Shown: positions 6,160 to 24,449 of the stretch, piece by piece | Position numbering within the stretch: position 1 is the stretch's first letter | Layout: every line of letters starts with the position of its first letter | IMG/VR virus record: IMGVR_UViG_3300025093_001530 | Span: 1-30,071 of that record | DNA from: a virus | DNA length: 30,071 nucleotides | Direction: 5' to 3' (one strand) | Notes under the pieces: model-generated | Database searches by the model: none | The model's input: only the letters and a program-made list of their open reading frames with translations | What the model was told of the DNA's origin: nothing | Position numbers and translations under genes: made by a program

Positions 6160-6567
6160 CTATAAAAGTGTATCTAATGTTCTCTGCATTTTATTGCTAC
6201 CGTAAGTGTTTTTATCACCCTTTAATTGTTGAAAACCTTTTTTAGCTTTTGATTCTTCTGATTCACTCTTTTTCTTTTTAAATGGTCTTGGGCATGCAGT
6301 ACCTTTTACATGAGTGTGACCACATCTTCCACAGTATGTAGCTTTTTTAGCTTCAAGTAATTTAGCAATATCACTATTAATATACTTGGAAGCAATTTCA
6401 TTCATTTTCCTTGATTTATTTTCAGAAATTTTATCAGCTTGTTTCTTCATCTGCTTTCTATACTTCGGGTCATTCTTCCATTTTTTTGAAACCTTGCCTC
6501 TTTTTTTAGCTTTATTAATATTATCCCAAAGACCTTCTTCTAAAATTTTATTTGTTTTACCCTGCAT
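6160..6567 (-). CDS. Basic protein with a putative zinc knuckle
   Basis: The 135-residue protein is very Lys-rich. Residues 79-92 ([14 protein letters not shown]) hold C79, C82, H84/H86 and C92, a plausible zinc-binding site. The basic N-terminal part ([20 protein letters not shown]) could bind nucleic acid. The first 11 residues ([11 protein letters not shown]) resemble the capsid-targeting-like leaders found on other proteins in this window. It overlaps the upstream gene by 11 nt, so the two are probably co-translated. I know similar Cys/His-rich basic proteins in T4-type marine phages without assigned function; none is claimed here. Confidence 0.65.
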
Positions 6568-7006
6568 GTTTTAAAACTTTCTTATAAAGATTCATTATAT
6601 CGTTATCAGATAAACCACCTTGTTTTAAGTATTGTTCTATATCATTAATATTATCAGTGTTTTTAATCTGTTCTAATTCTTTATTATCTAACTGATTAGA
6701 TAATTTTTTAGCAATAAAGCTTTTAAACATCTTTATTGCATTAGGTTTACTTGGAGTAATTACAGGTTCTTTTATATTAAAAATACCTGGCATAGAACCA
6801 CCGGGCATTAATATTTTCAACATAGGTGGTATACCACCCGCCATTGGACCCCCGCAAGCTTCATTGTTTAACTCGTGTAAAATAAACCCCTCGTAACTTT
6901 CACTTTCTTCAAAGCCTCTATTAAGAGTAGGATCTACTTTGAACCTAATATATCTTAACCCTTTGCTTTTTAAGCATTCGGTTAATATAGTGTCAAAGTC
7001 TTTCAT
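6557..7006 (-). CDS. Hypothetical phage protein with Gly/Met/Pro-rich centre
   Basis: I do not recognise this 149-residue protein. It has a short N-terminal leader-like stretch ([10 protein letters not shown]), a Gly/Pro/Met-rich middle ([19 protein letters not shown]) and a charged helical C-terminal half. The leader ends in Glu after hydrophobic residues, like a T4 capsid-targeting peptide, so an internal head protein is possible. It starts 8 nt downstream of the YibB-like gene stop and overlaps the next gene by 11 nt, so it belongs to the minus-strand operon that begins at the sulfotransferase. Confidence 0.6.
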
Positions 7007-7014
7007 ATTAATAT

Positions 7015-8082
7015 TTAATCAGACTGATAATTGATTACGTCTAATAGAGTTGTATAAAAGGGTTTAGAACATTCTTGATGAAAACACGGTTCATTTTCCC
7101 TACCATGATTCCAATTATCAAACCAAAATAGGTTGTATTTATGTTCAAAAGCTAAAATACTATAGTAAGGTTCTTCAGTAAAAGGTAATATGTTATGGTC
7201 GTTAGTAAATTCATTAAACAATTCGTCGTACTTAGGGATAAGTACGTTATCTAAGATGTCAAATGAACCTCCGAAAAATGTACCTACAGTCCAAGCAGGG
7301 TAATCTAAATAAAATGGATCTACATCAAAACCCTTAACACCTTTGAGGTCAAAAACTAGTTTATCAGGATCATCGTAATGTTTACCTAAAATAGGCCAAT
7401 TCATTACTTTAGATATTATCTTATTAGTTCTTTTACCGTATCGTTCCCAATCATATTCAGCTAATCTGTCATTTTGTTGATTTTGAGTAATAAAAAACCA
7501 TTCTTTATCATTAAAAATTCTTTTTACACCATCGGTAATTTTTTCATTAAAAATGTTATTTTTATTTTCTGGCCAATAATGCGAATCAGGGTACTTATTT
7601 TCATGTTCGTGGGGGTATACGTATTCAGCGCCACCTAAAGATAAAGGTACTTTACACCATTCAGTCACACCGGCATCGATCCAAAAAACTTTATCGCACC
7701 CCCATTCGTTATCCCGTGCCATACTACACCACTTTAACTTCCAATGACATAATAGTTCGTTTCTAGGTGCATACATCCAATAGTCTTTTTTACCAGCGTG
7801 CTCTCTATGAAACCATACAAAATTATTTTTAGTTTCTAAAATCTCATAAGATCTGGGGTAATCAAAAAGATTACACCCTATAACTTTAAATTCTTTAAAA
7901 AAAGGTTTTATTAATTCTTCTAATCTTTTAACTTCATGTGGCCAACAATACAAATGCATTGGCATGTTAAGTTTAGATAAATTTTTAAGAGATGAAACAT
8001 AAAGACCTTCATCATTATCCTTACCTCCTACCAACCAATCAGATCTTGAATGGTAAACACATGTTACTAAAATCGGTTTCAT
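7015..8082 (-). CDS. HtrL/YibB-like protein, putative glycosyltransferase-type fold (copy 1)
   Basis: The 355-residue protein matches the general pattern of HtrL/YibB (PF09612): LVTCVYHSRSD at residues 5-15, YVSSLKNLSKLNMP at 28-41, PRNELLCHWKL at 106-116, FWIDAGVTEW at 133-142 and HYWPENKNN at 168-176. The WID.G motif sits where GT-A enzymes place their metal site, but activity is not established. A paralog at 28870-29907 shares all of these motifs. It overlaps the sulfotransferase gene by 4 nt, suggesting the pair modifies the same glycan. Cellular location is probably cytoplasmic, since no signal peptide is seen. Confidence 0.7.
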   Translation of the reverse strand: MKPILVTCVYHSRSDWLVGGKDNDEGLYVSSLKNLSKLNMPMHLYCWPHEVKRLEELIKPFFKEFKVIGCNLFDYPRSYEILETKNNFVWFHREHAGKKDYWMYAPRNELLCHWKLKWCSMARDNEWGCDKVFWIDAGVTEWCKVPLSLGGAEYVYPHEHENKYPDSHYWPENKNNIFNEKITDGVKRIFNDKEWFFITQNQQNDRLAEYDWERYGKRTNKIISKVMNWPILGKHYDDPDKLVFDLKGVKGFDVDPFYLDYPAWTVGTFFGGSFDILDNVLIPKYDELFNEFTNDHNILPFTEEPYYSILAFEHKYNLFWFDNWNHGRENEPCFHQECSKPFYTTLLDVINYQSD

Positions 8083-8672
8083 ATCATATTATATTTTAAA
8101 AATTCAAAATCTTCGTGATATATTTCATTAATCTTTTGAATACAATTTTTACTTAAGTCTTTTATATAGTTAGAAGAACTTTTTCCGGTTCGTGAAGGGT
8201 TATGGTGTGGTAAATCCCCGGAAAAACTAAAATCTTTAGCCATTTTAGAAAATTCTTCATTTAAATTTTCAAATCTTAACACATAATCATAATCAACGTT
8301 TTCAAAATAACGTTTTTGCGGAATAGTATGATCAGACCATTCTAAAGGAATTCTATCTATAAAAGATTCTAAATTTGATAAATCATAAACAGTTTCTCTA
8401 TAAAAATATTCCGATATAATTTTTGTATATGGATTTCTAACTATAGTAAATTTTTTACAATTATTATATTCATTGTTATATCGTTCAGCTACCATAGGGG
8501 GTGTATAATGTTGAGGAGCAAAAACAATATCACCAATTTTTTCTTCTGTCCAGGAATAGCATATATCTGAATTATGTTGAAAATTATCTAAACCAAACTT
8601 TCTTTCAATAGACGAACCACCTGTTTTGGGTATGTGAATAAAAAGTAAATTGTGATCAAATATAAATGGCAT
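8079..8672 (-). CDS. Sulfotransferase (copy 1, Sulfotransfer_2-like)
   Basis: The 197-residue protein has the two PAPS-binding signatures of carbohydrate sulfotransferases: FIHIPKTGGSS at residues 11-21 (5'-phosphosulfate loop) and FTIVRNPYTKIISEYF at 75-90 (3'-phosphate site). It is short but includes both sites and the C-terminal helices. It should transfer sulfate from host-made PAPS to a sugar or other acceptor in the cytoplasm. It is the first gene of a minus-strand operon with the YibB-like protein. No clear early-type promoter or TATAAATA box is visible ahead of it, and no Shine-Dalgarno site. Confidence 0.85.
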   Translation of the reverse strand: MPFIFDHNLLFIHIPKTGGSSIERKFGLDNFQHNSDICYSWTEEKIGDIVFAPQHYTPPMVAERYNNEYNNCKKFTIVRNPYTKIISEYFYRETVYDLSNLESFIDRIPLEWSDHTIPQKRYFENVDYDYVLRFENLNEEFSKMAKDFSFSGDLPHHNPSRTGKSSSNYIKDLSKNCIQKINEIYHEDFEFLKYNMI

Positions 8673-8689
8673 TACATTTATTTACTCAG

Positions 8690-8717
8690 TTGAAACTAAA
8701 AGTAAATGTTATAATAT
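8690..8717 (+). promoter_or_regulatory. Early-type promoter of folE
   Basis: TTGAAA (8690-8695) with TAATAT at 16-bp spacing (8712-8717), 7 nt before the ATG. A better -10, TATAAT at 8710-8715, is preceded by TG one base away (extended -10) but gives a 14-bp spacer. Either way the leader is only a few nucleotides. Confidence 0.6.
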
Positions 8718-8724
8718 TAGTCAT

Positions 8725-9381
8725 ATGACTGATGATCAAAGAGTAAAAGAATTTGTATTACCTACTGCTAATAGTTCAGTAGCATTGACAGAAGACCAAC
8801 AAGGCATTGTTATTGAAAATGCTGCAAAAGCATATGAAGCATTTCTAGATGCACTTGGTTTTGATTGGCGTAAAGACCCTAATAGTGATAATACACCGCA
8901 TCGTGTGGCTAAGTCTTTCGTTAAAGATCTTATTGCAGGTTGTTATAATGGACCTCCAAAAGTTACTTCGTTTCCATCTGATGGTTACGATGGTATAGTT
9001 GCTCAGACTAATATTCCCGTTAAAAGTCTCTGCAGTCATCATCATCTTGCGTTTACAGGTAAAGCGCATGTTGCATACATACCTTCACTTGAAGGTAGGG
9101 TTATTGGTCTGAGTAAACTAAATCGTATTGTTGAGTATTATGCTCGTCGTCCTCAAATTCAAGAAGGTATGACAATGCAAATTCATCAAGCTATTGATAA
9201 AGTTTGTGAATTGAATAAAGGTGTTGCAGTAGTTATTAAAGCTACCCATACTTGTGCTTGTCTTAGAGGAGTTAAGCATGATGGTTGTTCAATGGTTACC
9301 TCTAAACTATCAAAAGACTTTATGGACGATGTTAAGACTCGTAAAGAGTTCTACGATTTTATTCGTATGGCTGAGTCTTGA
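8725..9381 (+). CDS. folE: GTP cyclohydrolase I
   Basis: The 218-residue protein is a complete type I GTP cyclohydrolase: TPHRVAKSFVKDL at residues 57-69, SLCSHHHLAF at 101-110, GLSKLNRIVEYYARRPQIQE at 128-147 and THTCACLRGV at 174-183. Expected zinc ligands are Cys103, His106 and Cys177. It makes dihydroneopterin triphosphate from GTP, the entry to folate and to 7-deazaguanine synthesis; with the QueD- and QueE-like proteins it covers the first three enzymes toward preQ0. QueC and a transglycosylase are not in the window. An early-type promoter ends 7 nt before the ATG. Base composition is slightly less AT-rich than its neighbours. Confidence 0.97.
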   Translation: MTDDQRVKEFVLPTANSSVALTEDQQGIVIENAAKAYEAFLDALGFDWRKDPNSDNTPHRVAKSFVKDLIAGCYNGPPKVTSFPSDGYDGIVAQTNIPVKSLCSHHHLAFTGKAHVAYIPSLEGRVIGLSKLNRIVEYYARRPQIQEGMTMQIHQAIDKVCELNKGVAVVIKATHTCACLRGVKHDGCSMVTSKLSKDFMDDVKTRKEFYDFIRMAES

Positions 9382-9388
9382 AATATAA

Positions 9389-9414
9389 CCCACGTTTATA
9401 AATATTAGCGTGGG
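9389..9414 (+). promoter_or_regulatory. Hairpin covering the GTG start of the late gene at 9410
   Basis: CCCACG (9389-9394) pairs with CGTGGG (9409-9414), enclosing a 14-nt loop that contains the late box; the GTG start (9410-9412) is in the right arm. It can form only in transcripts begun upstream, such as from folE. Confidence 0.5.
9397..9404 (+). promoter_or_regulatory. Late promoter, exact TATAAATA
   Basis: Perfect T4-type late box 5 nt before the GTG at 9410. Confidence 0.75.
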
Positions 9415-9970: not shown

Positions 9971-10659
9971 TATTCAATATAGTTTAATAAACTCTTTTTC
10001 CCAGCTTTACCTCTAAGCATTAAATTAAAAGCTATAGTGACTCTATATTGTTCACCTGGATGTTTAGTTACTGAATGTCTTAACCAACTTGGAAAAAGTA
10101 CTAATGTTCCAGAAGTAAGTTGGGGCATTACATTAGTAGTATAATATTTAGAACCACCTTCTTTAGCAGTTGGATGCATAACGAAATTTTGCATAATAGG
10201 ATTCATAAAACAAGTCCTACCAGGTGAAGGAATATTATTTGCAAAATTTTTGTCCATAATATCGTCTTTTAAAACGTATATACCACTTAAAAAACTATTA
10301 GGGTGAAAATGTTCGCCATTCTCTCCATACTTACTATAAATGTTATACCACATCATAGTAATTTCAAAATTTTCGACATCTATATTAGTGTTATCGCAAT
10401 AAGTGTAAGCACAATCAAAAATTTCATCTACTAAAAAATTAAATTTTTCATTTTTATAAATGTCATCTTTAGATTGGTAAGTATTAATGTCATTAGTTTT
10501 GCAAAATGAAATAACATTATCTGCAGCTTTTTTATCTTTACATACAGTTTTCATTTCACTTAATATAACATCAAGTGTTTGTTTTGTTGTGTCAGGGGAA
10601 ATCGTAAAGAAATTTATAGGTACGGGAAAAAAATCTATTAATTCATTATGATGTGGCAC
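9967..10659 (-). CDS. 2OG-Fe(II) oxygenase
   Basis: The 230-residue protein fits the putative 2OG-Fe(II) oxygenase family common in T4-type marine phages: GEHFHPNSFLSGIYVL at residues 115-130, GTLVLFPSWLRHSV at 184-197 and YRVTIAFNL at 205-213. Likely iron and 2-oxoglutarate ligands include His117 or His119, His195 and Arg206. Such enzymes hydroxylate proteins, nucleic acids or small molecules; the target is unknown. The start is GTG at 10659, supported by a promoter whose TATAAT ends 6 nt upstream. It overlaps the convergent gene by 4 nt. Confidence 0.85.
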   Translation of the reverse strand: MPHHNELIDFFPVPINFFTISPDTTKQTLDVILSEMKTVCKDKKAADNVISFCKTNDINTYQSKDDIYKNEKFNFLVDEIFDCAYTYCDNTNIDVENFEITMMWYNIYSKYGENGEHFHPNSFLSGIYVLKDDIMDKNFANNIPSPGRTCFMNPIMQNFVMHPTAKEGGSKYYTTNVMPQLTSGTLVLFPSWLRHSVTKHPGEQYRVTIAFNLMLRGKAGKKSLLNYIEY

Positions 10660-10665: not shown

Positions 10666-10693
10666 ATTATAGATTATTCCTCTTCTTTATCAA
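10666..10693 (-). promoter_or_regulatory. Early-type promoter of the 2OG-Fe(II) oxygenase gene
   Basis: TTGATA (10693-10688), a 16-bp spacer and TATAAT (10671-10666), 6 nt before the GTG at 10659. It overlaps the 3' end of the protease gene. Confidence 0.7.
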
Positions 10694-11111
10694 CGTCAAT
10701 AAGTTTATCAATTTTTGATACAAAATCTTTACCTACAAGAACCGGGTATTCGTTTTCAGATCTATCAGCTATAGAAAAAGGTACATCTTTATATTTTTTA
10801 CCGTCAAACATTATATCAAACAAAACTACCGGTCTTTCTTCTTTATTACCAGATCCGATATGTATTATTACTTTATCTACAACTTGTTTTTTTAATTTTT
10901 TATCATTAACTGTTTTTACAATAATATTATTACCACGTTTGCTTATAATATCACCGTGTAACACATTATAAGCTCCGTTACCAGAATCTACTTTAGCATG
11001 AATTTCACCGATATCTTGTATTTCAATAGGTTCAACCAAACCTATTACATCATTATCAGCTATTTCATTTAAAAAATAGTTTCTATATATATTATTAAAA
11101 CTTCTATTCAT
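10674..11111 (-). CDS. Retropepsin-like aspartic protease (RimK-associated/AtsB-type)
   Basis: The protein resembles PF05618, putative ATP-dependent zinc protease that is in fact retropepsin-like. IHAKVDSGNGAYNVLH holds the D-S-G active site, and VLFDIMFDGKKYKDVPFSIADRSENEYPVLVGKDFV matches the typical second half. Two starts are possible: ATG at 11147 (157 residues) or ATG at 11111 (145 residues, 8-nt overlap with the upstream gene). The shorter is preferred for its overlap and because its N-terminus (MNRSFNNIYRNYFLNE) then looks like a capsid-targeting leader. Retropepsins act as dimers. Its target is unknown; processing of packaged or head proteins is a possibility. Confidence 0.75.
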   Translation of the reverse strand: MNRSFNNIYRNYFLNEIADNDVIGLVEPIEIQDIGEIHAKVDSGNGAYNVLHGDIISKRGNNIIVKTVNDKKLKKQVVDKVIIHIGSGNKEERPVVLFDIMFDGKKYKDVPFSIADRSENEYPVLVGKDFVSKIDKLIDVDKEEE

Positions 11112-11289
11112 CTGATTTTCTAGATTCAAGAATATTCTTTCTTTCATCTCTTGCTAATTTTACTAAGTCAGCTAAGGCTTTACGAGCTCTAGTAGATGCT
11201 GATTTATTATTTTTTTCAGTAAATAAATCAATATTTTTTACGTAATTTGCAACTAACTCTAAGATTTCTTGTTTTTTTGATTCAGCCAT
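11104..11289 (-). CDS. Histone H1/Hc1-like small basic protein
   Basis: The 61-residue protein has the pattern of bacterial histone H1-like Hc1 proteins (PF07432): LVANYVKNIDLFTEKNNKSA leading into STRARKALADLVKLARDERK (residues 32-51), a basic helix pair. Such proteins bind DNA and shape nucleoids. The length is close to the short Bacteroidetes-type members of the family. It is first in an operon with the retropepsin-like protease. A degenerate late box GATAAATA lies 23 nt before the ATG. A role in packing phage DNA, or in binding host DNA, is inferred. Confidence 0.7.
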   Translation of the reverse strand: MAESKKQEILELVANYVKNIDLFTEKNNKSASTRARKALADLVKLARDERKNILESRKSDE

Positions 11290-11362: not shown

Positions 11363-12082
11363 ATGAAGAAAACCTTATTTTCTCTCATTTTGTTGGCTGC
11401 CCTTACTATTAACGGTAATGCGCAGGTTAAAGTAGACGCTGGTTATACCTCTGATTTTACAATCTTAGGTACTGCAAGAGCTAAAGATTCGGCATATTTC
11501 GGTATTACCGGGGTAAAGGAAATTAAAGAAGGTTTGCATGGTTATGCATTCAATTATTTCGTCCCTGGCAATACTTGGTCTGGAGCTGATAATAATATCC
11601 TTGATGCATCTCAAAATCATGCAGGGGTTGGATTAGTTTATGAAGTCGATTCTATTGCAGGTAAATCTTTGGGTAATTACGCTTTTACGCTTGATACCCA
11701 AGCTGTTTATCACTTGGTTAATGGTGCTCTTGGAGATTCATTTCAGTATAGCGTAGGTGGTACATTTAGTAAATTGCCTGTATTGGGTCAAGTTGCTGAT
11801 TTAACACTTGCATATGTTGATGATGTTGATCTTGATTTGAACGGTGTTCAAGTCGAATTAAGCAGAAGTTACAGTGTGATCGATAACGTAAGTATTACAC
11901 CTAAAGTTGGGGCATATTTCATTGACGACAATGAATCTTTGTATGCTGGTGCAAGAGTTTCGTATGACAAGTACGCTATTAAACCTTATGCCGGTGTTCG
12001 TTATATGGATAATGACTTTGGTGGTATTTTAGCAGTTGAGGACGACGTTCAATGGACATTGGGCGCTAAACTTAGTTTCTAA
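11363..12082 (+). CDS. Secreted outer-membrane beta-barrel-like protein
   Basis: The 239-residue protein starts with a clear Sec signal peptide: MKK, a hydrophobic core about residues 4-16, and NGNA before Gln21 as the cleavage site. The mature part alternates polar and hydrophobic residues in Gly/Tyr-rich strands (for example LYAGARVSYDKYAIKPYAGV) and ends in ...WTLGAKLSF with a C-terminal Phe, as in beta-barrel outer-membrane proteins. It is monocistronic, with its own early-type promoter ending 6 nt before the ATG and a strong terminator. Codons look less AT-biased than the neighbours, suggesting acquisition from a bacterium. It may be a porin-like or receptor-masking protein. Confidence 0.8.
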   Translation: MKKTLFSLILLAALTINGNAQVKVDAGYTSDFTILGTARAKDSAYFGITGVKEIKEGLHGYAFNYFVPGNTWSGADNNILDASQNHAGVGLVYEVDSIAGKSLGNYAFTLDTQAVYHLVNGALGDSFQYSVGGTFSKLPVLGQVADLTLAYVDDVDLDLNGVQVELSRSYSVIDNVSITPKVGAYFIDDNESLYAGARVSYDKYAIKPYAGVRYMDNDFGGILAVEDDVQWTLGAKLSF

Positions 12083-13400: not shown

Positions 13401-13408
13401 TATTTATA
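13401..13408 (-). promoter_or_regulatory. Late promoter of the DUF2589 operon
   Basis: Exact TATAAATA on the minus strand, 8 nt before the ATG at 13392. Confidence 0.75.
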
Positions 13409-13424: not shown

Positions 13425-14840
13425 TTATGCGTCTTCAAGCCAGTTAGCAGCGGCAAAATATAAACCAGATCCCGCACCGGATTTTAATGGTGTAACAAAT
13501 ATATGATATTCATCTGAAGTACCTTGAATATCGTGACCAAATGTAACAAAACTTTCTTTTAATGTAGCTAAATCAGCAGCATTATCTTTTGATACAAATA
13601 CTGTTGATAGTACTTGACCACCACTAATATATTGAAACCCTGATCCTCCAACCCCCACAGCTACAGCAGAATCTTGAATTGATTGTAGAGTGAAAGTACC
13701 GGTATATGAAGGGTTTCTTATAATTCTAATTCTTGTATCTATATTAGAGTCGGTGTTAATAACACTAAAATCTTGAGGTGTAACAACAGCATTTTGTCTT
13801 GTGGCAGATAATGTTAACATTAAAATAGAACATTCGGTTTTAACGGGGATAGAAATTTCTACATTTGATGTATCTAATGCTGTATCAAAAGAACGTAACG
13901 AACCTTGTTTACTTACACCGCCTTCAGAATTTACATTAGCACATATGTGTAATAATTGACCAGCTGTAGCGCCATTTTGTCTTATTTCTGCTCTAATAGG
14001 TAAATTGGGGTTTTGTATAAAAGTAGATGCAATTACATTAGCATTAAGTACTTCATGACAATAAATTGTTTGACCTTTTTCATTAAATCCAAATCTTATT
14101 CTACCGGATCCCAACCATTCAAAGTCAATAGTAAATATCTGAACCTTTGACATGTCAAGGGTTAAACCACTTGGACCGTTACCATCTAACTTATCCAAAT
14201 TCCACGAACTTTGCGGTATAGATATAGATGGTGCATTACCAAAAGCATTTTGAACATTTACAGAAAGAACATTATCGTTCATTCTAAAAAATACACCATT
14301 ATATTGATCATAATCAGCAGATGTATTTGATTTAAATGCACCGTAACACATATCTAAATCATCACCCCCACTTAAAATACCGGTCATTAAAAACTGTTGC
14401 GACTTACCTGGTTGGTAACTAAAACTTTGAAACGTTTGCCTTATTGCATAATCACCGGAATTTAATGTATATAACACTGTTCCGGTATCACCAAAACTAT
14501 GTCTACATCCAGCTGTACCGTTACCTAATTCATCATAAACAAAATCTCTTTTACTATATAATTGTTTTGCAGAAAATATTGCAGTAGGATTACTTACTCT
14601 TAATCTACCAAAAGCATCTATAGAACTGTTATCACCAAAAGGTAGTGAGTTTGTTTGAGCTTGACCTATATCATATGTAAGTATTGCAGTTTTAGGAAAA
14701 ACTTGAGTTTTGCTAGTAACGGGATTAGTTGAATCCCAAACAGCAGTTACGGGTGGAAAATTTGTATCGTTTAAAATTTCAACAAATTTTTGATATTCAT
14801 AGGTTTGATAACCACCATTTAAAACAGTTCTAAGTGACAT
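13425..14840 (-). CDS. Putative virion structural protein (tail-fibre or adhesin type)
   Basis: The 471-residue protein is rich in Ser, Thr, Asn and Gly with predicted beta structure. It contains SSIDAFGRLRVSNPTAIFSA near residues 72-91, a motif I associate with large structural proteins in phages and giant viruses, and jelly-roll-like segments such as IFTIDFEWLGSGRIRFGF. No enzymatic motif is visible. It lies in the late operon read from the TATAAATA box at 16449, downstream of the lipoprotein. A host-recognition or decoration role is inferred from composition and context only. Confidence 0.65.
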   Translation of the reverse strand: MSLRTVLNGGYQTYEYQKFVEILNDTNFPPVTAVWDSTNPVTSKTQVFPKTAILTYDIGQAQTNSLPFGDNSSIDAFGRLRVSNPTAIFSAKQLYSKRDFVYDELGNGTAGCRHSFGDTGTVLYTLNSGDYAIRQTFQSFSYQPGKSQQFLMTGILSGGDDLDMCYGAFKSNTSADYDQYNGVFFRMNDNVLSVNVQNAFGNAPSISIPQSSWNLDKLDGNGPSGLTLDMSKVQIFTIDFEWLGSGRIRFGFNEKGQTIYCHEVLNANVIASTFIQNPNLPIRAEIRQNGATAGQLLHICANVNSEGGVSKQGSLRSFDTALDTSNVEISIPVKTECSILMLTLSATRQNAVVTPQDFSVINTDSNIDTRIRIIRNPSYTGTFTLQSIQDSAVAVGVGGSGFQYISGGQVLSTVFVSKDNAADLATLKESFVTFGHDIQGTSDEYHIFVTPLKSGAGSGLYFAAANWLEDA

Positions 14841-14841: not shown

Positions 14842-15024
14842 TTATTTCTTCTTTAAATTTACTTTTTTCTTTTGATTTGTTTTACCCTTATTAACCATCT
14901 TTTTTGTTTCTTTATCTTGTTGCTTGGTTCTTTTAACATTCTCTCTCGGAAACGTATCTAATGGGTAATCTTCTAACAACTTTTCAATTTTTTTATTAAA
15001 TGTTCTCATATTGTTTTTGTTCAC
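14842..15024 (-). CDS. Very small basic protein
   Basis: This 60-residue protein is about one third Lys, ending in a Lys-rich tail (KGKTNQKKKVNLKKK). The GTG at 15024 overlaps the lipoprotein stop as GTGA; an in-frame ATG at 15009 gives 55 residues beginning MRTFNKKIEKLLED, which looks like a capsid-targeting leader. It ends 1 nt before the large structural gene. A DNA-binding internal head protein is one reading, but composition is the only evidence. Confidence 0.5.
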   Translation of the reverse strand: MNKNNMRTFNKKIEKLLEDYPLDTFPRENVKRTKQQDKETKKMVNKGKTNQKKKVNLKKK

Positions 15025-15320
15025 GGGTCTCTTGGTTCTGTAGGTTTTCGTGATTCTAACGGTTTTCTTTTTGGTACACCATTAACTGGAAGTGGTCTGC
15101 TAGGTGGTGTGGGTCTAGATATTTTAGGTGGCGAATAATCTTTTCTTTTTTCTCTTTTTCTATAATGGTGGTGATCGTGATCATCATAAACATAAACGGT
15201 TCTTGTATGGTGAGTATGATGGTGGTGTATATGCCCACCACAACAGTAATCGGATTCTACTACCTCCCAACCGGAGCATCCGACTAATAATAAAAATAAT
15301 AATAAAATACAATTTTTCAT
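15021..15320 (-). CDS. His-rich lipoprotein
   Basis: The 99-residue protein (ATG at 15320, overlapping the upstream stop as ATGA) has a lipoprotein signal peptide: MKNC, a Leu-rich core and lipobox LVGC with Cys15 as the lipidated residue. Next come two Cys and a striking His cluster, 11 His within about 25 residues near 30-55, then a basic segment and a Pro-rich C-terminus. The size and Pro-rich tail are compatible with an outer spanin-type lysis lipoprotein; the His cluster suggests metal binding. The longer frame to 15356 would hide the signal peptide and is rejected. Confidence 0.75.
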   Translation of the reverse strand: MKNCILLLFLLLVGCSGWEVVESDYCCGGHIHHHHTHHTRTVYVYDDHDHHHYRKREKRKDYSPPKISRPTPPSRPLPVNGVPKRKPLESRKPTEPRDP

Positions 15321-16132
15321 TTTTGGTTTATTATTTTTAATGAACGTTCTTTCCATATATTTAATAAATCAACATTTGTATAATCTAAACATCTATTATA
15401 AAATTTTTTACATCTATCGTCTCCGTCTACCATACTTACATAACCTTGTGTAATACCACTATAATGTTCCCACCATATATCTTCATTATCTAATAGTAAA
15501 ATATCATTTTTATCAATCTTATCTACAATTTGAGTGGAAATTAAATTAAAATGATCATAATCTTGTTCATCAACATCGATAACTTCAAATTTATTATCTA
15601 TGTAAGTTATTTTTTTATTGTATTCAATATTTGCCTGTTGTTTAATATTATTACCAAAAGCAGAAAAAGTTTTATATTTTAAATCACTTAATAATTCTTT
15701 TTTACATAACCAAAAACAAGGCCAAAATCTTTCTCTCCACACAGACATGAATTTAAATGGTTTTTTGTTTATAATATCTAAAGCTTTATCCCAATCTAAA
15801 GCCATATCAGGTTCTAGAGAAAGAATATAATCACCGGTAGATTGATTTAAAAAATCCTGCATGCATGAATCTCTCCAATCAGAACACAAACTATTGTCTT
15901 GATGATGATGTCTTGTAATAAATTTACATTTATCTTTTAAATCGGATTTTATAAATTCAGTATACGGGGTTTCTGCAGAACAAACTAAATCATCGGGATA
16001 AGTTTCATTATTATATGTAAAAATATAATATATTGAATTAAAAAAGTTGTGATATTTGTGAATAAAGTCCCTTATTAAAGGGCTATCCAAAATAGTCACA
16101 GATATAATTACAACATCAATTTTTTTATGCAT
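15317..16132 (-). CDS. Putative GT-A-type glycosyltransferase
   Basis: The 271-residue protein has a GT2-like beginning (MHKKIDVVIISVTILDSP), a RDSCMQDFLNQSTGDYILSL segment at residues 87-106 and an acidic EPDMALDW at 107-114, where GT-A enzymes hold the DxD-like metal site. The C-terminal third is not recognised. It begins 1 nt after the Cys-rich protein gene in the late operon, and its stop overlaps the lipoprotein start. Late expression of a glycosyltransferase suggests virion or late surface glycosylation, but this is inference. Confidence 0.55.
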   Translation of the reverse strand: MHKKIDVVIISVTILDSPLIRDFIHKYHNFFNSIYYIFTYNNETYPDDLVCSAETPYTEFIKSDLKDKCKFITRHHHQDNSLCSDWRDSCMQDFLNQSTGDYILSLEPDMALDWDKALDIINKKPFKFMSVWRERFWPCFWLCKKELLSDLKYKTFSAFGNNIKQQANIEYNKKITYIDNKFEVIDVDEQDYDHFNLISTQIVDKIDKNDILLLDNEDIWWEHYSGITQGYVSMVDGDDRCKKFYNRCLDYTNVDLLNIWKERSLKIINQK

Positions 16133-16133: not shown

Positions 16134-16436
16134 TTACCAGTTCTTACAGCTTAGATATCTTGCTGTACCTGGCTTCGCAGAAGAACACTTATGTCTTGCT
16201 CTAAAACTTTTACGTCTTTTAGGATTACTCTTTTTAATACGTCTCTTTGGATCTCCGTAATGTATCCTTTTGTATCCCTTACCGGAAGGGTTCTTTACAC
16301 ACTTCATATACTTCTTACTTGCAAGGTAAGAGCTAGCTTGTTTTGTGGTTTTTGTGCATCTAGATCCTTTTTTCTCTAAAATATCACTCAACTCAAAATC
16401 TTCTTCCATTAATTTTAAAAGAGAGTCAAAATCCAT
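16134..16436 (-). CDS. Conserved Cys-rich basic phage protein
   Basis: The 100-residue protein has a short acidic N-terminus (MDFDSLLKLMEED) that resembles a capsid-targeting leader, then a basic domain with C27, C46, C84 and C97 and the segment GYKRIHYGDPKRRIKK followed by KSFRARHKCSS and YLSCKNW. I know this C-terminal pattern from structural-region proteins of T4-type phages and large viruses, but no function is established. An exact late box ends 5 nt before the ATG. It is the first gene of the late operon that runs to 13425. Confidence 0.7.
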   Translation of the reverse strand: MDFDSLLKLMEEDFELSDILEKKGSRCTKTTKQASSYLASKKYMKCVKNPSGKGYKRIHYGDPKRRIKKSNPKRRKSFRARHKCSSAKPGTARYLSCKNW

Positions 16437-16441: not shown

Positions 16442-16449
16442 TATTTATA
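16442..16449 (-). promoter_or_regulatory. Late promoter of the Cys-rich protein/lipoprotein/virion-protein operon
   Basis: Exact TATAAATA on the minus strand, 5 nt before the ATG at 16436. It shares four bases with the divergent late box. Confidence 0.8.
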
Positions 16450-16453
16450 AATA
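16446..16453 (+). promoter_or_regulatory. Divergent late promoter of the gene at 16459
   Basis: Exact TATAAATA, 5 nt before the ATG at 16459. Together with the minus-strand box it forms TATTTATAAATA, a 12-bp palindrome serving both directions. Confidence 0.8.
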
Positions 16454-16458: not shown

Positions 16459-16947
16459 ATGAATAAAGACGAAAAGAGTTTAACTGAACTCTATGAAGCA
16501 ACTTTATCACCTTTGAATGGTGTGGGACTTGGTCCTCATGCTCAAGATTCTGCTGGTGGATTAGGTAGCCCAACTTTAACAAAAATTGAAGTAGAAGATG
16601 AAGAAAGAGAGCAGATTGACGACCATGAAGTTGATATGGCTAAGTCTGAACTTTATAAGTTAGCTGAATATGCTCCCAAATTACTCGATCTAATTAAGAA
16701 TTATGATGAATTAGAAGGTTGGGTTCAAGCTAAACTTACAAAAGCTAGTGATTATGTTTCTGATATATATCATTATCTAAAATACGAAGAAGAAGCTAAA
16801 GTACATAGTCATCAAGTAGACGAACCTTCTCCTTGCGAAGTAGCACAAGCTGAAGAACCAGGTGTTGAAGTAGAAGTTGTCGCAGACGACGATAATAATC
16901 AAGCTATTAATGATGAAGTTATCAAAGCTTTAATGAATAGATTTTAA
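16459..16947 (+). CDS. Conserved phage protein, late, acidic
   Basis: The 162-residue protein contains AKSELYKLAEYAPKLLDL followed by ELEGWVQAKLTKASDYVSDI, a helical segment I recognise from small capsid-region proteins of marine T4-type phages, flanked by disordered acidic sequence. The start is the ATG at 16459 (MNKDEK), 5 nt after an exact TATAAATA; an out-of-frame ATG at 16455 gives only a three-codon frame. It is monocistronic and ends overlapping the convergent sulfotransferase by 4 nt. It is probably virion- or scaffold-associated. Confidence 0.7.
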   Translation: MNKDEKSLTELYEATLSPLNGVGLGPHAQDSAGGLGSPTLTKIEVEDEEREQIDDHEVDMAKSELYKLAEYAPKLLDLIKNYDELEGWVQAKLTKASDYVSDIYHYLKYEEEAKVHSHQVDEPSPCEVAQAEEPGVEVEVVADDDNNQAINDEVIKALMNRF

Positions 16948-17620: not shown

Positions 17621-18232
17621 TTAATCAGAAGGAAGATTACTCAACTCACTATATACGTATTTTAATATCTCTTCGTTATTAGCTAATTCATTGGGTACAA
17701 AAGCTCTAAGATTTTCTAAACTTAAGTTATCGATAATATTTCTAAAGTTACTTGCACTAACTTCACCACCTTCGTCACTTACAACATCAGCAACTTGTAC
17801 ATCAACACTAACGCCTTCGGGTGTATGTTTATCTATATTATTATATCGTGCTTTATCGTCACCTTTACCACCGACACCAACTAAAATTTGATCACCTGGC
17901 GTTGCATAATCTTTTATAAAATCATAAACTTCACCAACTGCATTTTTAGCTGTAGAAACATTTACGTTGCGTAAACCTAATGCACTAATATAAGCTTTTA
18001 ATATGTCAGCTGCTACTGTACCGGGTATATACTTACCATCTGGTGTATATCTTCTAGACTTAGGTGACGGTTCTGTAACGATGACATTTACTATTCCTTC
18101 AGGCCCGACCATTTCTTTAAATCTTTTTATTAATTCAACATGACCTTTATGAGGCGGTTTAAATGAACCGGGAAATAAAACTATTTTTCTAGTAATTTGC
18201 TCTTTTAAGAAATAGTCTTTAAACGTTAACAT
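17621..18232 (-). CDS. HxGH-type nucleotidyltransferase (NadM/cytidylyltransferase-like) with capsid-targeting-like leader
   Basis: The 203-residue protein belongs to the HIGH superfamily of nucleotidyltransferases: GSFKPPHKGHVELI at residues 22-35 with the H-K-G-H motif, and EVSASNFRN at 157-165 matching the ISSTxxR motif. Members adenylate or cytidylate small phosphates, such as nicotinamide mononucleotide. The N-terminus MLTFKDYFLKE precedes the catalytic domain and resembles T4 internal-protein leaders (MKTYQEFIAE). Related marine-phage proteins that I know carry a similar leader, so packaging in the head is plausible. The substrate is not readable. Confidence 0.8.
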   Translation of the reverse strand: MLTFKDYFLKEQITRKIVLFPGSFKPPHKGHVELIKRFKEMVGPEGIVNVIVTEPSPKSRRYTPDGKYIPGTVAADILKAYISALGLRNVNVSTAKNAVGEVYDFIKDYATPGDQILVGVGGKGDDKARYNNIDKHTPEGVSVDVQVADVVSDEGGEVSASNFRNIIDNLSLENLRAFVPNELANNEEILKYVYSELSNLPSD

Positions 18233-19498: not shown

Positions 19499-19514
19499 AT
19501 AGTTACTTAACTAT
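19499..19514. repeat. Short inverted repeat at the junction of the 418- and 448-residue genes
   Basis: ATAGTTA and TAACTAT with two bases between, spanning the stop of one gene and the start region of the next. AT-rich; it may be chance or a small operator. Confidence 0.3.
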
Positions 19515-20849
19515 TTTACCTTTAAATCCAGTACCACCAGGATCTTTACTACTTCTTGGATTTGTAAAATAAGATGAAAAGTCCATATGGCCATTACCCA
19601 TATTAGCAGCTGGTGCGGATTGATCATCTTCGTCTGTTTTAATTGAACGATTAGAAGCTAATGCACCGCCCATACCAGATAAAATAAATTCACCGGTAAT
19701 TTTAATTGAATTGGGGTTACCTAACCCATCTTTACCATAATCAATATGTGAAATAACTATACCTTCGTGTTTATCTGCATCACCATAATTATCGGTAGTA
19801 TAATTTTTAAGCAATTCATTACCCAATTCTTTAGTTAAATGATATGTTAAAGCACCTGATATAGCCGTATCATAATCTTGTTCATCATATATTTGATTCA
19901 AAGGTACTTTATCAGAGTTTAATATATTAATATAATTTTCTTTACTTACTGCTCCAATAGATTTGCCTTGTTTATTTGTAATTCTATTAACCTTAGGTAT
20001 GTGATTATAGCTGTTAATATAATCTCTTAACTTCATCTTTAAAACATTATCACCTAAGTTTATTGAAAAATCTTGATTAAGAACATTATCAAAATTAGGT
20101 TCACCTTTTTTAGTTGCGTATATACCCGTTTCAACATCAAACCCATATTTTTGTGCGATAGGTTTTACCTTTTCTCTTAAAGAATCTAAAGCTTTGTGGT
20201 CATAATCAACTGTACGTGAAACTGTTTTTTCTTTTCTTAATTTACCTTTTTCATCTTTAAAAACATTTGGTTTTAATTCAGATGGTCTTGTTACATTTCC
20301 TTTTCTATCTGTCTTTTCAAAAAACTGATTTATACCATGAAAAGCAATAATTTTATTTTCACCATAGTCAATAACATTTTCGGTACCTTCTATATATTCG
20401 GTGTTAATAAATTTTGAAGGATTGTCCCATAAATCTAAATCTTTAAGTTCCTCTTTAATAAGCGGAATAGATTCATTCATTATCTTTAATATAGTACCAC
20501 CCTTACGAACCATACCATGAACTTCACCAGTTTGTGGATTAACAGGAAATCTAGTTGAAAGATCATTTATGGTAATACCTTTTACATCAATTTCTTTTTG
20601 AGAACCTCTATCTAATGCAAATTGTTTTTCATTACCTTCACCAATAACTTTTAAACTTAAATTAACACCGTCTAATTTAATAGTTGATTGACCTTCTTCT
20701 AATTTTTCATCTGCATCTTGAAATGTTCGAACCAGATCGATAAGATTTACAACTTTAGGTAAATCGAAAGGGTGCATCATATGACCAGCCGCACCACCTT
20801 CATTTACAACTCTTAAATATTTTTCGAAAATTAATGATTGTTCGTTCAT
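19503..20849 (-). CDS. Ligase/nucleotidyltransferase-like protein with KxDG motif (DUF6267-like)
   Basis: The 448-residue protein has motifs in the order expected of covalent nucleotidyltransferases (DNA/RNA ligase type): STIKLDGVNLSLKV at residues 55-68 with KLDG and candidate AMP-accepting Lys58, INTEYIEGTEN at 148-158, KHEGIVISHI at 360-369 and SIKITGEF at 381-388. AGHMMHPFD before the first motif is also typical of phage proteins annotated DUF6267. It may ligate or adenylate nucleic acid. The N-terminus (MNEQSLIFEKYLRVVNE) resembles a capsid-targeting leader. It overlaps the upstream gene by 4 nt (ATGA). Confidence 0.6.
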   Translation of the reverse strand: MNEQSLIFEKYLRVVNEGGAAGHMMHPFDLPKVVNLIDLVRTFQDADEKLEEGQSTIKLDGVNLSLKVIGEGNEKQFALDRGSQKEIDVKGITINDLSTRFPVNPQTGEVHGMVRKGGTILKIMNESIPLIKEELKDLDLWDNPSKFINTEYIEGTENVIDYGENKIIAFHGINQFFEKTDRKGNVTRPSELKPNVFKDEKGKLRKEKTVSRTVDYDHKALDSLREKVKPIAQKYGFDVETGIYATKKGEPNFDNVLNQDFSINLGDNVLKMKLRDYINSYNHIPKVNRITNKQGKSIGAVSKENYINILNSDKVPLNQIYDEQDYDTAISGALTYHLTKELGNELLKNYTTDNYGDADKHEGIVISHIDYGKDGLGNPNSIKITGEFILSGMGGALASNRSIKTDEDDQSAPAANMGNGHMDFSSYFTNPRSSKDPGGTGFKGKIVK

Positions 20850-22351
20850 ACGTTTAATTTAATTGCTACACCTTTTGATCTTGAATCAATACTCAAACCA
20901 ATACTTAATTTGTTTTCGTCAATTAATCTTTTTATTACATTAAAAGTATAAACAAAACGTTCTTTAACTGATTCGCCTTGAGGCATAAGTGGAAACCCAT
21001 TCATTGTATTATCATTCATGAATAAAATAATTTTAAATTTTTCATGTTCTTTATACATTGAAATTTGTAAAGCACCGATAATAGCTCTTAAAAGATTATC
21101 GTCTCTTTTTCTAGCTAATGATCTCATTGTTTCTAAATCTAAAATTTGATCTAAACCTGCTTTAAAATCTTTTGTGTTAAATTTAGCTTCACTTGCTAAT
21201 TCTAGAAAACCGGCAATAAGTTCATCTTTAGAAAAGCCCCATTCATTAAGAAAGAAATTTTTAATAACCGGGTCAGTTGTAGACGATTCATTATCTTTTC
21301 CAGTTACTACTTTATTCTCATTTGCATTAATGTAATCTCTTAATGAGTTAAAATATTTCGAAACTCGATTTATTACAGCATTGTAAGAAGTTTTGTTAAC
21401 TACTTTAGGTAAAATTCTAACTAAATCGTTTTTAAGCTGAAATTCTAAATCATTAGCATCTTTAAGTTTAACATCACTATCGTTATCGATTTCTTCAATA
21501 AATTCAGAAACTTCTTTAATACTATCAGAAGTACCTTGTTCAAATTTATCATCAATAGTTTGTATAACTTTATCTAAGTATCTAGATAATTCATTTCTAT
21601 TTTTTGCTAATGTTTTATATTTGTCTCTAATTTCACTACCAGTAAATACGTCTTGACCTTTTAAATCTTTTAACATCTTAGGTAATGTTTTCATAGCAGC
21701 GAATGCATTACCAGTTTTACCAGGTCTACCACTTAACCCTTTTAATTCAACGTCACCAAATCCCGGGAAATATAAATCACCTACATCACCTTTTACGGCA
21801 TTAGAAAACATTGTTATTGCAATTTCACCTTTACCCACACCAACATTATTCAAAGTAGGGTTAATTAAGCAAATATCTTGAATGGTCTCGTGAGGGTTTG
21901 AAAAAACCGCTTTTACTGCATCTTCTAACGGGTCTATAATACTAAATGTTTCTTCGTTTTCAGCAGCTTGTAACATTGTATCTAAAAACAATGTTTTGTT
22001 TTTCTTTTGTGATGCAAATTCTTTAAGTTCTGCATTCCTTACATCAGAAGTACTTTCAACAGCTTCATTTACTGGTCCTAAAATCTTCTGAATATATTCT
22101 TTTTCACTAGTACCTTTCCAATCACATTTAACAAGAATATCGTTAAGAATTTTTACAGTTCCTTCACTACTGTTTAATATTTTTCTTTTTAATTTTGCAG
22201 CAGTATCGTCATCGATAGCTCCAATAACTTTAGGTTGATTATCCTCATCTGTTTGAAAGTAAACTTGTACGCGTTCTCGTACTAAAGGTTCAAGTTTTTT
22301 ACCTATAGTGTTTTCAGAATAAACATCGAGTAGTGATTTATATTTGCTCAT
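20846..22351 (-). CDS. Large phage protein, possible PD-(D/E)xK nuclease-like core
   Basis: The 501-residue protein contains NNVGVGKGEIAITMFS (near 167-182) and then DLYFPGFGDVELKGLSGRPG (near 192-211). The GE ... D ... ExK arrangement fits a restriction-endonuclease-like fold, but this rests on motif spacing only. The rest is helical and unrecognised. Its N-terminus MSKYKSLLDVYSE resembles a capsid-targeting leader. It is translationally coupled to the ligase-like gene, so a nuclease and ligase pair is possible. It might equally be a structural protein. Confidence 0.5.
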   Translation of the reverse strand: MSKYKSLLDVYSENTIGKKLEPLVRERVQVYFQTDEDNQPKVIGAIDDDTAAKLKRKILNSSEGTVKILNDILVKCDWKGTSEKEYIQKILGPVNEAVESTSDVRNAELKEFASQKKNKTLFLDTMLQAAENEETFSIIDPLEDAVKAVFSNPHETIQDICLINPTLNNVGVGKGEIAITMFSNAVKGDVGDLYFPGFGDVELKGLSGRPGKTGNAFAAMKTLPKMLKDLKGQDVFTGSEIRDKYKTLAKNRNELSRYLDKVIQTIDDKFEQGTSDSIKEVSEFIEEIDNDSDVKLKDANDLEFQLKNDLVRILPKVVNKTSYNAVINRVSKYFNSLRDYINANENKVVTGKDNESSTTDPVIKNFFLNEWGFSKDELIAGFLELASEAKFNTKDFKAGLDQILDLETMRSLARKRDDNLLRAIIGALQISMYKEHEKFKIILFMNDNTMNGFPLMPQGESVKERFVYTFNVIKRLIDENKLSIGLSIDSRSKGVAIKLNV

Positions 22352-22352
22352 A

Positions 22353-22724
22353 TTAATAATCTATATCAGGATCGTCAGAGTATGTATTAATGAAATTTTT
22401 CATTGCCATTAATTTTTCTCTTCCGTTATCCTCATTTATTTCGTCATCTAAAATAGTTGAAGGAATGGTTCCTTCTGTTGGCTCTAAAACTAAAGCTTTA
22501 CGAATTAGTCTTATAAGTTCGACTTCACCAGCTGATGTAAGTTGTTTTACTTGAGGTTCTGGTTCTTTAATAGTTTCAGTTTCACGTGCTGCGATTATTT
22601 CTTCCCCACCTCCACGTCCACCAGCTGCAGCTGGTGATTGAGATAAATCAGGTACTGGCGCAAGTTCTGACAAAACACCGCGTTTATTTTTTATAATTTT
22701 GAAAAATTTGCTTTTTATTTTCAT
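22353..22724 (-). CDS. Hypothetical protein with low-complexity Ala/Gly-rich segment
   Basis: I do not recognise this 123-residue protein. It has a basic N-terminus (MKIKSKFFKIIKNKRG), a Pro/Ala/Gly low-complexity region, and an acidic helical C-terminal half. Its ATG overlaps the upstream stop (TAATG), and it ends 1 nt before the next gene starts, so it is firmly within the operon. The disordered composition suggests a scaffold-like or internal protein, but nothing specific can be said. Confidence 0.6.
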   Translation of the reverse strand: MKIKSKFFKIIKNKRGVLSELAPVPDLSQSPAAAGGRGGGEEIIAARETETIKEPEPQVKQLTSAGEVELIRLIRKALVLEPTEGTIPSTILDDEINEDNGREKLMAMKNFINTYSDDPDIDY

Positions 22725-23227
22725 TAGTATTTTCCTACAGGTAATGTTTTTGTTTGTAAAGCTTTATCCATCTTATCTGAAAGCTCTTGGGTGCGTTTAT
22801 GATATAAATCTACACCTTTATTCATTAAAGCCTGTCTTTGTTTTACTGCTGTTCTTGCTCTACCTGCAGATGTACCAAAAGCTGAACCAATCATGTTACT
22901 TTTTGCACCATGAGCTTCAACATCTGCTTCGAAATCATATGGATCATCTTTTAACTCAATAGATGCTTCTTCTTCATCTTTAACGGGTTGTTTAAGTAAA
23001 TCATCTACTTTAAAATATATCTCACCACCTGCAATACCCGCCGCATCGAAATCTGGATTATCTGGATCAGGTCCTTTTTTAAGTCTATCGATAGCAATAC
23101 CTACAACTTCTTTATCAATTAAAATATTTTTAATTTTTTCTAAAGTATTTCTACCTATTGAAATAGTTTCTTCGTCCTCTGAAACATAGTTATTATACCC
23201 TTCTCTTAGAGCTTGGTCAAACTTCAT
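22724..23227 (-). CDS. Hypothetical late protein, probably capsid-associated
   Basis: The 167-residue product is not recognised. It has a leader-like start (MKFDQALREGYNNYVSE), an acidic middle and a basic, helical C-terminal third (SAGRARTAVKQRQALMNKG). A late-type box AATAAATA sits 5 nt before the ATG, the same spacing as for other late genes here. Late expression plus the leader suggests an internal head or scaffold protein. That is inference from position and composition. Confidence 0.6.
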   Translation of the reverse strand: MKFDQALREGYNNYVSEDEETISIGRNTLEKIKNILIDKEVVGIAIDRLKKGPDPDNPDFDAAGIAGGEIYFKVDDLLKQPVKDEEEASIELKDDPYDFEADVEAHGAKSNMIGSAFGTSAGRARTAVKQRQALMNKGVDLYHKRTQELSDKMDKALQTKTLPVGKY

Positions 23228-23232
23228 AATAT

Positions 23233-23240
23233 TATTTATT
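23233..23240 (-). promoter_or_regulatory. Late-type box before the gene at 22724
   Basis: AATAAATA, one mismatch from consensus, 5 nt before the ATG at 23227, the same spacing as exact late boxes. Confidence 0.5.
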
Positions 23241-23796
23241 TAAAAGCAATCTGTTTAGTTTTCATATTGTTAAAATACTCACCTGATAAAAAAGTTAAAT
23301 TATTTTTAACTGCAAACTTTTTAACCTTTTGAAATGTAAAATTTTCTACTTTAAAGTTATTAATTGTGTTTACTATTCGAATCAATGTACCTCTAGCTCT
23401 ACCGTCATCTTTATCTAATAAATGTTTAAAGAAATCTAAACTCTTACTAGAGATAACAACTTTAATAGGTAAAAGTCCACGAATCTTAACCAACATCAAC
23501 GTTATTAATTTCATATATTGGCTTTCATCTATATAATTCAACACTTCGCTTTCGTAAAATTGTGTGTTATTAAAGTAAAGTACGAGTTTATTATCGGTTT
23601 TTACTGAATTTAAGTAGTCTACAGCTTCTTTAATGGTATAGTGAAGTATTAATTTTCTACAATCTCTTGATAAATCGTAAAGTGAGTCAAGTAATTGTAA
23701 ATTATGAAGCTCATCTAATAGATTTTTTTCGTAATTACGGTGAATATCCTGAAAGTCGATAAGAGTAACATTATATTCGGGTAAATCTAAGTTCAC
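23236..23796 (-). CDS. Hypothetical early protein with GTG start
   Basis: I do not recognise this 186-residue protein. It alternates hydrophobic strands (NVTLIDFQDI, KLVLYFNNTQFY, IKVVISSK) with helices, which would suit a Rossmann-like or PIN-like alpha/beta fold, but no catalytic motif is clear. The GTG start is supported by one of the best promoters in the window (TTGAAA, 16 bp, TATAAT, then 6 nt). That places it in early expression, unlike its late neighbours upstream and downstream. Confidence 0.6.
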   Translation of the reverse strand: MNLDLPEYNVTLIDFQDIHRNYEKNLLDELHNLQLLDSLYDLSRDCRKLILHYTIKEAVDYLNSVKTDNKLVLYFNNTQFYESEVLNYIDESQYMKLITLMLVKIRGLLPIKVVISSKSLDFFKHLLDKDDGRARGTLIRIVNTINNFKVENFTFQKVKKFAVKNNLTFLSGEYFNNMKTKQIAFK

Positions 23797-23802
23797 GTAG
23801 TG

Positions 23803-23830
23803 ATTATAATGAGTTCTCTGTTACTTTCAA
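23803..23830 (-). promoter_or_regulatory. Early-type promoter of the gene at 23236
   Basis: TTGAAA (23830-23825), a 16-bp spacer and TATAAT (23808-23803), 6 nt before the GTG at 23796. The -35 overlaps the stop codon of the GIY-YIG gene. Confidence 0.7.
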
Positions 23831-24246
23831 CTTTTTTTAACCTTACCTATACGTAAATTGATAATACCGTTGTAGAACTTATCTTCATGCAGTAAAACAT
23901 CATGATCGAACTGTAATTTAGCTTCATAGTATGCTAATTCTGACTTAGAACAACAAAACCTTACTATTTCGAAGTGAAATTTATCTTTGCCGTACTCAAT
24001 AAGGTCGTGATTAACTTTATCTGAAGAAGATGTATAAGTTTTCCAATCTGTTTCTTTAATAACGTGTCTGCGGCGTGATTTACCTTTAAGAGGAGGAAGT
24101 TTTGCTACTTTTCTAGCTTGTTTTTTTCCTATATATTTTTTTCCGGTGATTGTATTGGTAATAATGTAGATAAAACCAAAGAAGTCCTCGGGTATCTCTT
24201 CTCTTAATCCATTATAAGTCCAATGCCCTAAATTATCAACTGTCAT
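23827..24246 (-). CDS. GIY-YIG family endonuclease-like protein
   Basis: The 139-residue protein has a GIY-YIG core: GFIYIITN at residues 24-31, KKYIGKKQARK at 36-46 with Arg45 and, further on, ELAYYEAKLQ at 103-112 with Glu108 as the metal-binding residue. Free-standing homing endonucleases such as T4 Seg proteins have this domain, but they usually carry extra DNA-binding modules not seen here, so a phage-specific nuclease is equally likely. No intron or interrupted gene is nearby. The start overlaps the next gene's stop region by 4 nt (ATGA). Confidence 0.75.
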   Translation of the reverse strand: MTVDNLGHWTYNGLREEIPEDFFGFIYIITNTITGKKYIGKKQARKVAKLPPLKGKSRRRHVIKETDWKTYTSSSDKVNHDLIEYGKDKFHFEIVRFCCSKSELAYYEAKLQFDHDVLLHEDKFYNGIINLRIGKVKKS

Positions 24247-24449
24247 TTTTTAGTTTTCTTCTTTTTACGCTTCTTTTTCTTATTACGTCTTTGAACCGCA
24301 CCTAATACTTTGGGCATTCTAGAATCGCCTGGAGCGTAAAAATCACCAGAAAACTGTGATGATGTCCATGTACCTAAAGCCCCACCGGGTCCAGCTACAT
24401 TACCATCTTCGTCAAGCAATTTTAAAAAAATGTTTTTAAATGTTGACAT
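24243..24449 (-). CDS. Small late protein with capsid-targeting-like leader and poly-Lys tail
   Basis: The 68-residue protein begins MSTFKNIFLKLLDED, close in pattern to T4 capsid-targeting leaders, continues with a Gly-rich region containing SQFSGDFYAPGDSRMPKVLG, and ends in a Lys/Arg-only tail of about 15 residues. A late box TATAAATA lies 6 nt before its ATG. A short basic internal head protein that binds packaged DNA is a good fit. I know similar small proteins from marine T4-type phages, but none is characterised. Confidence 0.65.
   Translation of the reverse strand: MSTFKNIFLKLLDEDGNVAGPGGALGTWTSSQFSGDFYAPGDSRMPKVLGAVQRRNKKKKRKKKKTKK

Follow-up and report, generated by a model that had tools for sequence, protein, structure and literature searches.

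Candidate T4-type capsid-targeting leaders on enzymes and basic proteins of a marine T4-like phage

Introduction

The internal proteins of phage T4 are directed into the head by N-terminal capsid-targeting leaders, of which ten residues suffice (PMC9026906); that of IPIII, read from AF158101, is MKTYQEFIAE/A (a slash marks a known or proposed cleavage site throughout). Among cyanophages, a cytidylyltransferase has been detected in virions of S-SZBM1 (PMC9146016), its T4-GC190 family in those of S-SM1 (PMC3037559), and virion mass spectrometry of S-CREM2 identified 52 proteins (PMC10665884). Here we describe leaders resembling those of T4 in the IMG/VR record IMGVR_UViG_3300025093_001530 (the window: the whole stretch analyzed, 30,071 bases, 30% G+C, 44 genes), which represents part of a marine T4-like phage genome and encodes gp55 and UvsW.

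A preliminary description of this DNA placed such leaders on about ten proteins and proposed capsid targeting and gp21-type cleavage after Glu. All nine N-termini are present at the genes it named. About six of the nine hold in relatives; the other three lack conservation at the Glu that was proposed. It is likely that these six or so, together with three further genes, encode T4 internal-protein-type propeptides cut by gp21 after Glu. Targeting and cleavage are supported in part: comparison with relatives shows that leaders behave as modules, appear linked to gp21, coincide in one family with the predicted gp23 maturation site, and are found on enzymes in related virions. For this phage we infer targeting, cleavage and the roles of the cargo, and injection would follow by analogy with T4.

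Results and Discussion

The window was compared with close relatives, all fragments of 14-35 kb (G001, G002, G039-G042, G045), and with G038, a longer and more distant relative (157,857 bases) that has a gp21 gene (E=6e-35) and in which the leader genes and their neighbors are arranged as in the window. The genes with leaders that hold in relatives, followed by the three further ones, are:

17621-18232, minus strand: nucleotidyltransferase (Pfam PF01467); leader MLTFKDYFLKE at 18200-18232, kept in G001, G002, G040 and G041.
19503-20849, minus strand: RNA-ligase-like protein; leader MNEQSLIFEKYLRVVNE at 20799-20849.
24243-24449, minus strand: poly-Lys protein that copies the N-arm of mature gp23; leader MSTFKNIFLKLLDE at 24408-24449.
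16134-16436, minus strand: Arg-rich basic protein, phrog_7595-like; leader probably MDFDSLLKLMEEDFELSDILE at 16374-16436.
10674-11111, minus strand: Zn_protease-family protein (Pfam PF05618); leader MNRSFNNIYRNYFLNE at 11064-11111.
6160-6567, minus strand: basic 135-residue protein; leader at 6535-6567.
22353-22724, minus strand: Pro/Ala-rich 123-residue protein; leader MKIKSKFFKIIKNKRGVLSE at 22665-22724, with MTFNERMAKYKSLLNE/QEPVP at the equivalent position in G038.
14842-15009, minus strand: basic protein; leader MRTFNKKIEKLLE at 14971-15009.
16459-16947, plus strand: 162-residue protein; leader of a second class, MNKDEKSLTELYE/A, at 16459-16497.

The leaders of the nucleotidyltransferase (F[KW]x[YF]F[LI][KR]E), the ligase-like protein (V[VL]NE/GG) and the poly-Lys protein (LLDE/D) keep their Glu in relatives. 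The protease leader (YFLNE/I) is kept in close relatives but is absent from G038; it starts at an internal Met (11111), the first Met of the open reading frame (ORF) being at 11147, and G042 has the internal start only. The leaders of the Arg-rich and 135-residue proteins also hold, the boundary in the former probably lying after ..SDILE rather than ..LMEE. Leader codons are under purifying selection, with nonsynonymous-to-synonymous ratios (pN/pS) of 0.11 to G001, 0.26 to G002, and 0.20 to G040.

One body occurs with different leaders, and one leader type occurs on different bodies. In 77 relatives of the ligase-like protein on viral contigs, leaders of varying length and sequence precede a near-invariant GGAAGHMMHPFD and nearly all end in Glu before GGAAGHM (L046 has Met); examples are MKIYTNFTEFLNE, MKLLSFDSFINE, and MKTLLNYTEFLIE, followed by a second ..xE/GG. 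The entire leader of the G038 protein is MMTFKQFLLE/GG, close to that of T4 IPIII. Similarly, the Arg-rich protein begins with MISFKEFYLE in G038, and the body of the 135-residue protein follows another leader, MNSFNKKIEELLSVNE, in G002 (13817-13987). The leader type MNxFNKKIEELL, to which that at 14842-15009 belongs, precedes different bodies in the window, G002, and G040. Residues 15-16 of the nucleotidyltransferase align with residues 2-3, the start, of solved adenylyltransferases, so its leader is an addition to the enzyme fold.

Other N-terminal types recur as well. The second class, M.KD..LIFE/AY, is found on several unrelated proteins (G038:83824, 134462, and 150332; G002:363; window 16459). 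At 174-179 kb of G023 (L103), adjacent genes carry the near-identical leaders MKKVKLFEQYVAE, MKKVKLFEDFINE, MKHVKLFEQFIGE, and MKTVKLFEQFVNE, one of which precedes a P-loop (GGPGSGKS) protein. Genes of G024 (L106, L107), a gp21-encoding fragment, open with another repeated type, MDRKALKKIIREEIKKMEE and MSSRVKISKERLNDIIREEYLNILSE, which may represent a leader code of its own.

The ligase-like protein has K58, D60, G61, E151, H171, E362, G363, and K383 invariant in 24 sequences, and contains the KxDG nucleotidyl-acceptor and further superfamily motifs (EG, K) of ATP-dependent RNA ligases. Its best fold matches are T4 RNA ligases 2 and 1, which are weak (E 0.003 and 0.011, low TM-scores), and Pfam and PHROGs gave no naming match. 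In some relatives the ligase-like domain is fused to a nucleotidyltransferase (L043:5335-7863; L046:6202-8190; L069 around 5210-6844), suggesting that the two domains work together. Two of these fusions keep a Glu before GG[AG]AGHM at the junction, where gp21 might separate the two parts.

The T4-type late promoter TATAAATA occurs five times in the window, fewer than expected by chance. Four sites lie 5-8 nucleotides before a start codon, three of them at leader genes, and the fifth is 5 nucleotides before the GTG of 9410; permuted octamers fall within 40 nucleotides of a start in 12% of cases. The sites at leader genes are:

24456-24463, minus strand: late promoter 6 nucleotides before the poly-Lys gene.
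16442-16453: two overlapping, divergent late promoters, 5 nucleotides before the starts at 16436 (minus strand) and 16459 (plus strand), conserved in G001 and G040.

These boxes, and those at 13401-13408 (minus strand) and 9397-9404 (plus strand), end 5-8 nucleotides short of the start codon. Should transcription begin where it does in T4, late mRNAs may therefore lack a 5' leader. A Shine-Dalgarno sequence is present at few window starts. By the position of these predicted promoters, expression would be late.

A Peptidase_S77 (gp21) match is found in 16 of the 37 records holding the ligase family; the remainder are for the most part shorter, although one without a match is 123 kb long. The Arg-rich body follows ..LELTE/AEYQGKK in gp21-positive C48C1 and ..LPLEE/AEFQGKK in gp21-positive HTVC008M. 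No gp21 match was obtained in Aegir, HTVC106P, CRP-235, or CRP-6, and the same body starts directly, with no T4-type leader, in Aegir (MAKYQGR) and in HTVC106P and CRP-235 (MAIDK). Whole-genome counts of a narrow T4-like pattern, [FYL]..[FY][ILMF].E, exceed expectation in C48C1 (5 vs 0.5), S-CREM2 (4 vs 0.2), and G023 (7 vs 0.7), and slightly in G038 (2 vs 0.6). A 407-residue leader protein of C48C1, considered as a relative of the ligase-like protein, was dropped (no homology).

The poly-Lys protein links a leader to a head-maturation site. With a profile built from 80 gp23 arms, its G038 ortholog scores E=5e-16 and the window protein E=1.6e-5, while reversed decoys score 8 or worse. The G038 ortholog reads ..FCKLLEE/DNVAGGTGSAFGSG..GNFGNQFPSQNDDAYAPNDARVPKILGTKKKKKKK and the gp23 of the same phage ..KWCFE/ASNIAGSSSSVF..GNYGNQFPSQNDSAYAPNDSRLPKILIPMIRR; in the alignment the Glu of the leader meets that of the gp23 maturation site, which was placed by position from the T4 site. 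By this profile match, the poly-Lys protein is homologous to the mature gp23 N-arm from the cleavage Glu onward, and differs from gp23 in having its own short leader, no shell domain, and a Lys-rich tail at the end. The family is present at 69 viral loci, and some members retain the downstream VPLIRRTFPGM.

An alternative is that the leaders target proteins to the prohead core and are cleaved, but that the cargo works within the head, in DNA condensation, scaffolding, or head maturation, and is not injected. Several of the bodies are small and basic in addition to the one that copies the gp23 arm, and T4 IPIII influences head assembly (PMC9026906). The enzyme cargo has no obvious head role, however, and we consider a purely internal function rather unlikely.

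Published virion mass spectrometry allows the leaders to be compared with virion content. All four non-structural, non-lytic enzymes detected in S-CREM2 virions have T4-type leaders: the S-adenosylmethionine (SAM) hydrolase (MKDFDSFLEE), kinase (VKRFDAFLTE), cytidylyltransferase (MKNFSSFLTE), and Cas9-annotated nuclease, in which LRFASFMAE lies further in. Leaders are also found on the detected hypothetical proteins 13 (MKDLHSFLTE) and 136 (MQTFSMFFSE), and more weakly on 15. The narrow pattern occurs in the first 16 residues of 5 of the 52 detected and none of the 171 undetected proteins (Fisher p=6e-4, which is indicative, since allowed residues were chosen after the sequences had been inspected). 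The S-SZBM1 cytidylyltransferase starts MRFRQFIIE/A, and the T4-GC190 family starts MKSFFQFLSE/A in S-SM2 and MKKFSAFLTE/A in Syn33 and P-SSM7. No report of such leaders in cyanophages was found in the open-licence literature searched, and that of the cytidylyltransferase appears to have gone unremarked by its authors. A block of S-CREM2 (OR473000: 7704-13331) holds the virion-detected ORFs 12-15 (the Cas9-annotated nuclease, the kinase, and two small proteins), nearly all with leaders.

Could the leaders be ordinary amphipathic N-terminal helices of unrelated proteins, resembling those of T4 by chance? The motif is short and degenerate, and [LIVMFY].E by itself is barely enriched in the window. 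A chance likeness is nevertheless highly improbable, given that leaders and bodies are swapped in both directions among relatives, that most gp21-negative phages have no leader before the Arg-rich body, and that leaders mark enzymes of the S-CREM2 virion. Within residues 2-20, a loose pattern that asks for Glu at P1 and a hydrophobic residue at each of P7, P4, and P3, [FYLIVMW]..[FYLIVMW][LIVMFY].E, matches 6 of 44 gene starts in the window, against 1.5 expected from residue shuffles (6 reached in 1 of 500) and 1.4 from internal protein segments (2 of 500); a stricter form gives 3 matches against 0.3. These probabilities are indicative, because the patterns were written after the leaders had been read. 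Two window proteins have orthologs, in G038 and G040, that do match the narrow pattern. A matrix derived from other phages, with ligase-family leaders part of the training set, ranks counterparts of window leader genes as the top three of 188 G038 genes.

Several findings weigh against T4-type leaders cleaved by gp21. Three of the proposed N-termini fail at the Glu:

22724-23227, minus strand: 167-residue protein; leader MKFDQALRE/GYNNYVSE at 23177-23227, the slash being a candidate cleavage site.
20846-22351, minus strand: 501-residue protein; leader-like MSKYKSLLDVYSE at 22313-22351.
6557-7006, minus strand: 149-residue protein; leader-like N-terminus at 6977-7006.

In the 167-residue protein conservation lies further upstream, at A[LI][RK]E/G, and the Glu of ..NYVSE is replaced by Gln in G002; in the 501-residue protein Asp or Ala replaces the Glu in aligned relatives, and in the 149-residue protein it is Gly in G002. 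None of the 44 window genes matches the narrow pattern, which implies that the window leaders are divergent, and the trained matrix finds 2 of 44 at p<=0.01 (0.4 expected), with weak scores. A gp21-type protease is absent from the 30,071-base window, itself a fragment. Gp21-positive HTVC008M has no narrow-pattern N-terminus (0.4 expected), while gp21-negative CRP-6 has one, and the CRP-6 Arg-rich start, MADAFDIDNLPLEE/D, resembles the HTVC008M leader end. Finally, the authors of the S-CREM2 study (PMC10665884), and likewise those of S-SCSM1, leave contamination of their virion preparations open.

The loss of Glu would also fit leaders that target but stay uncleaved in part of the set, as in the 501- and 149-residue proteins. 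The former keeps the hydrophobic residues without a conserved Glu, and in T4 an Asp at the cleavage position stops processing, not targeting (PMC9026906). Stronger families do conserve the Glu, and the end of the poly-Lys leader coincides with the site of gp23 maturation; we judge partial cleavage unlikely. The 501-residue protein also contains GD..FPGFGDVELKG..GR, which looks like a PD-(D/E)XK nuclease motif; assignment as a nuclease from ELKG..GR was dropped, as the structure model was of low confidence.

The window also encodes a phrog_1645 virion protein and homologs of PhoH, QueD, QueE, the late sigma factor gp55, and UvsW, the last of which shares 30-33% identity with its counterparts in cyanophages and other T4-like phages. 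Searches of isolated phages with tblastn gave no matches for the ligase-like, nucleotidyltransferase, and poly-Lys proteins. Also kept in relatives are a protein with a signal peptide, likely an outer-membrane barrel (11363-12082), and a His-rich likely lipoprotein (15021-15356).

If the leaders function as in T4, leader proteins would be made from gp55-type promoters late in infection, and the hydrophobic leader would dock each into the prohead core. Cleavage behind the final Glu of the leader, by the phage's gp21 protease, would then release the body within the head as it matures. In this clade the cargo would include the nucleotidyltransferase, the RNA-ligase-like protein, the Zn_protease-family protein, several basic proteins, and the gp23 N-arm copy with its Lys-rich tail. 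The enzymes would leave the head with the DNA and could act from the first moment of infection, for instance in NAD or RNA repair. A possible role of the gp23-arm copy is to anchor DNA at the inside of the capsid wall.

More broadly, we tentatively suggest, as a possibility that falls just short of probable, that marine T4-like phages share a modular head-export code, in which a gp21-removed leader fits almost any protein and each phage loads its own enzyme kit (nucleotidyltransferase, RNA-ligase-like protein, protease, SAM hydrolase, kinase, Cas9-like nuclease) for time-zero delivery, with the gp23-arm copy, through its Lys-rich tail a basic protein, lining the inner capsid wall and binding DNA. 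The leaders offer a mechanism for an open puzzle in cyanophages, namely whether virion enzymes are cargo or contaminants, and make that question testable in existing spectra. They also provide a rule by which proteins that are packaged, and possibly injected, could be predicted from the sequence of a phage genome, and the 69 viral loci define a small family of gp23-arm proteins.

Comparison with known systems

The mechanism itself has its precedent in T4. Within the literature searched, what appears to be new is that enzymes are among the cargo, how widely this occurs in marine phages, that a second class of leader exists, and that the gp23 arm has been copied. The window leaders resemble the capsid-targeting sequences of T4 IPI, IPII, and IPIII in being 10-20 residues long, in serving as modules for unrelated bodies, in their T4-type late promoters, and, by the loose pattern though not the narrow one, in hydrophobic spacing and a Glu at the end. 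They differ in being more divergent, in being found on nucleotidyltransferase, RNA-ligase-like, and protease-family proteins, and in including the second class, MNKDSxLIFE/A. T4 Alt, an ADP-ribosyltransferase that is packaged and injected and has its N-terminus removed by gp21, is by description also an enzyme with an N-terminal propeptide; in contrast to Alt, several enzymes in this clade would be loaded via one leader type. The virion cytidylyltransferase of cyanophages (NMNAT-like; S-CREM2 ORF154, S-SZBM1_140, T4-GC190) is likewise a CTP_transf_like enzyme with a leader, and has been detected in virions by mass spectrometry, although the window enzyme is similar to it only locally.

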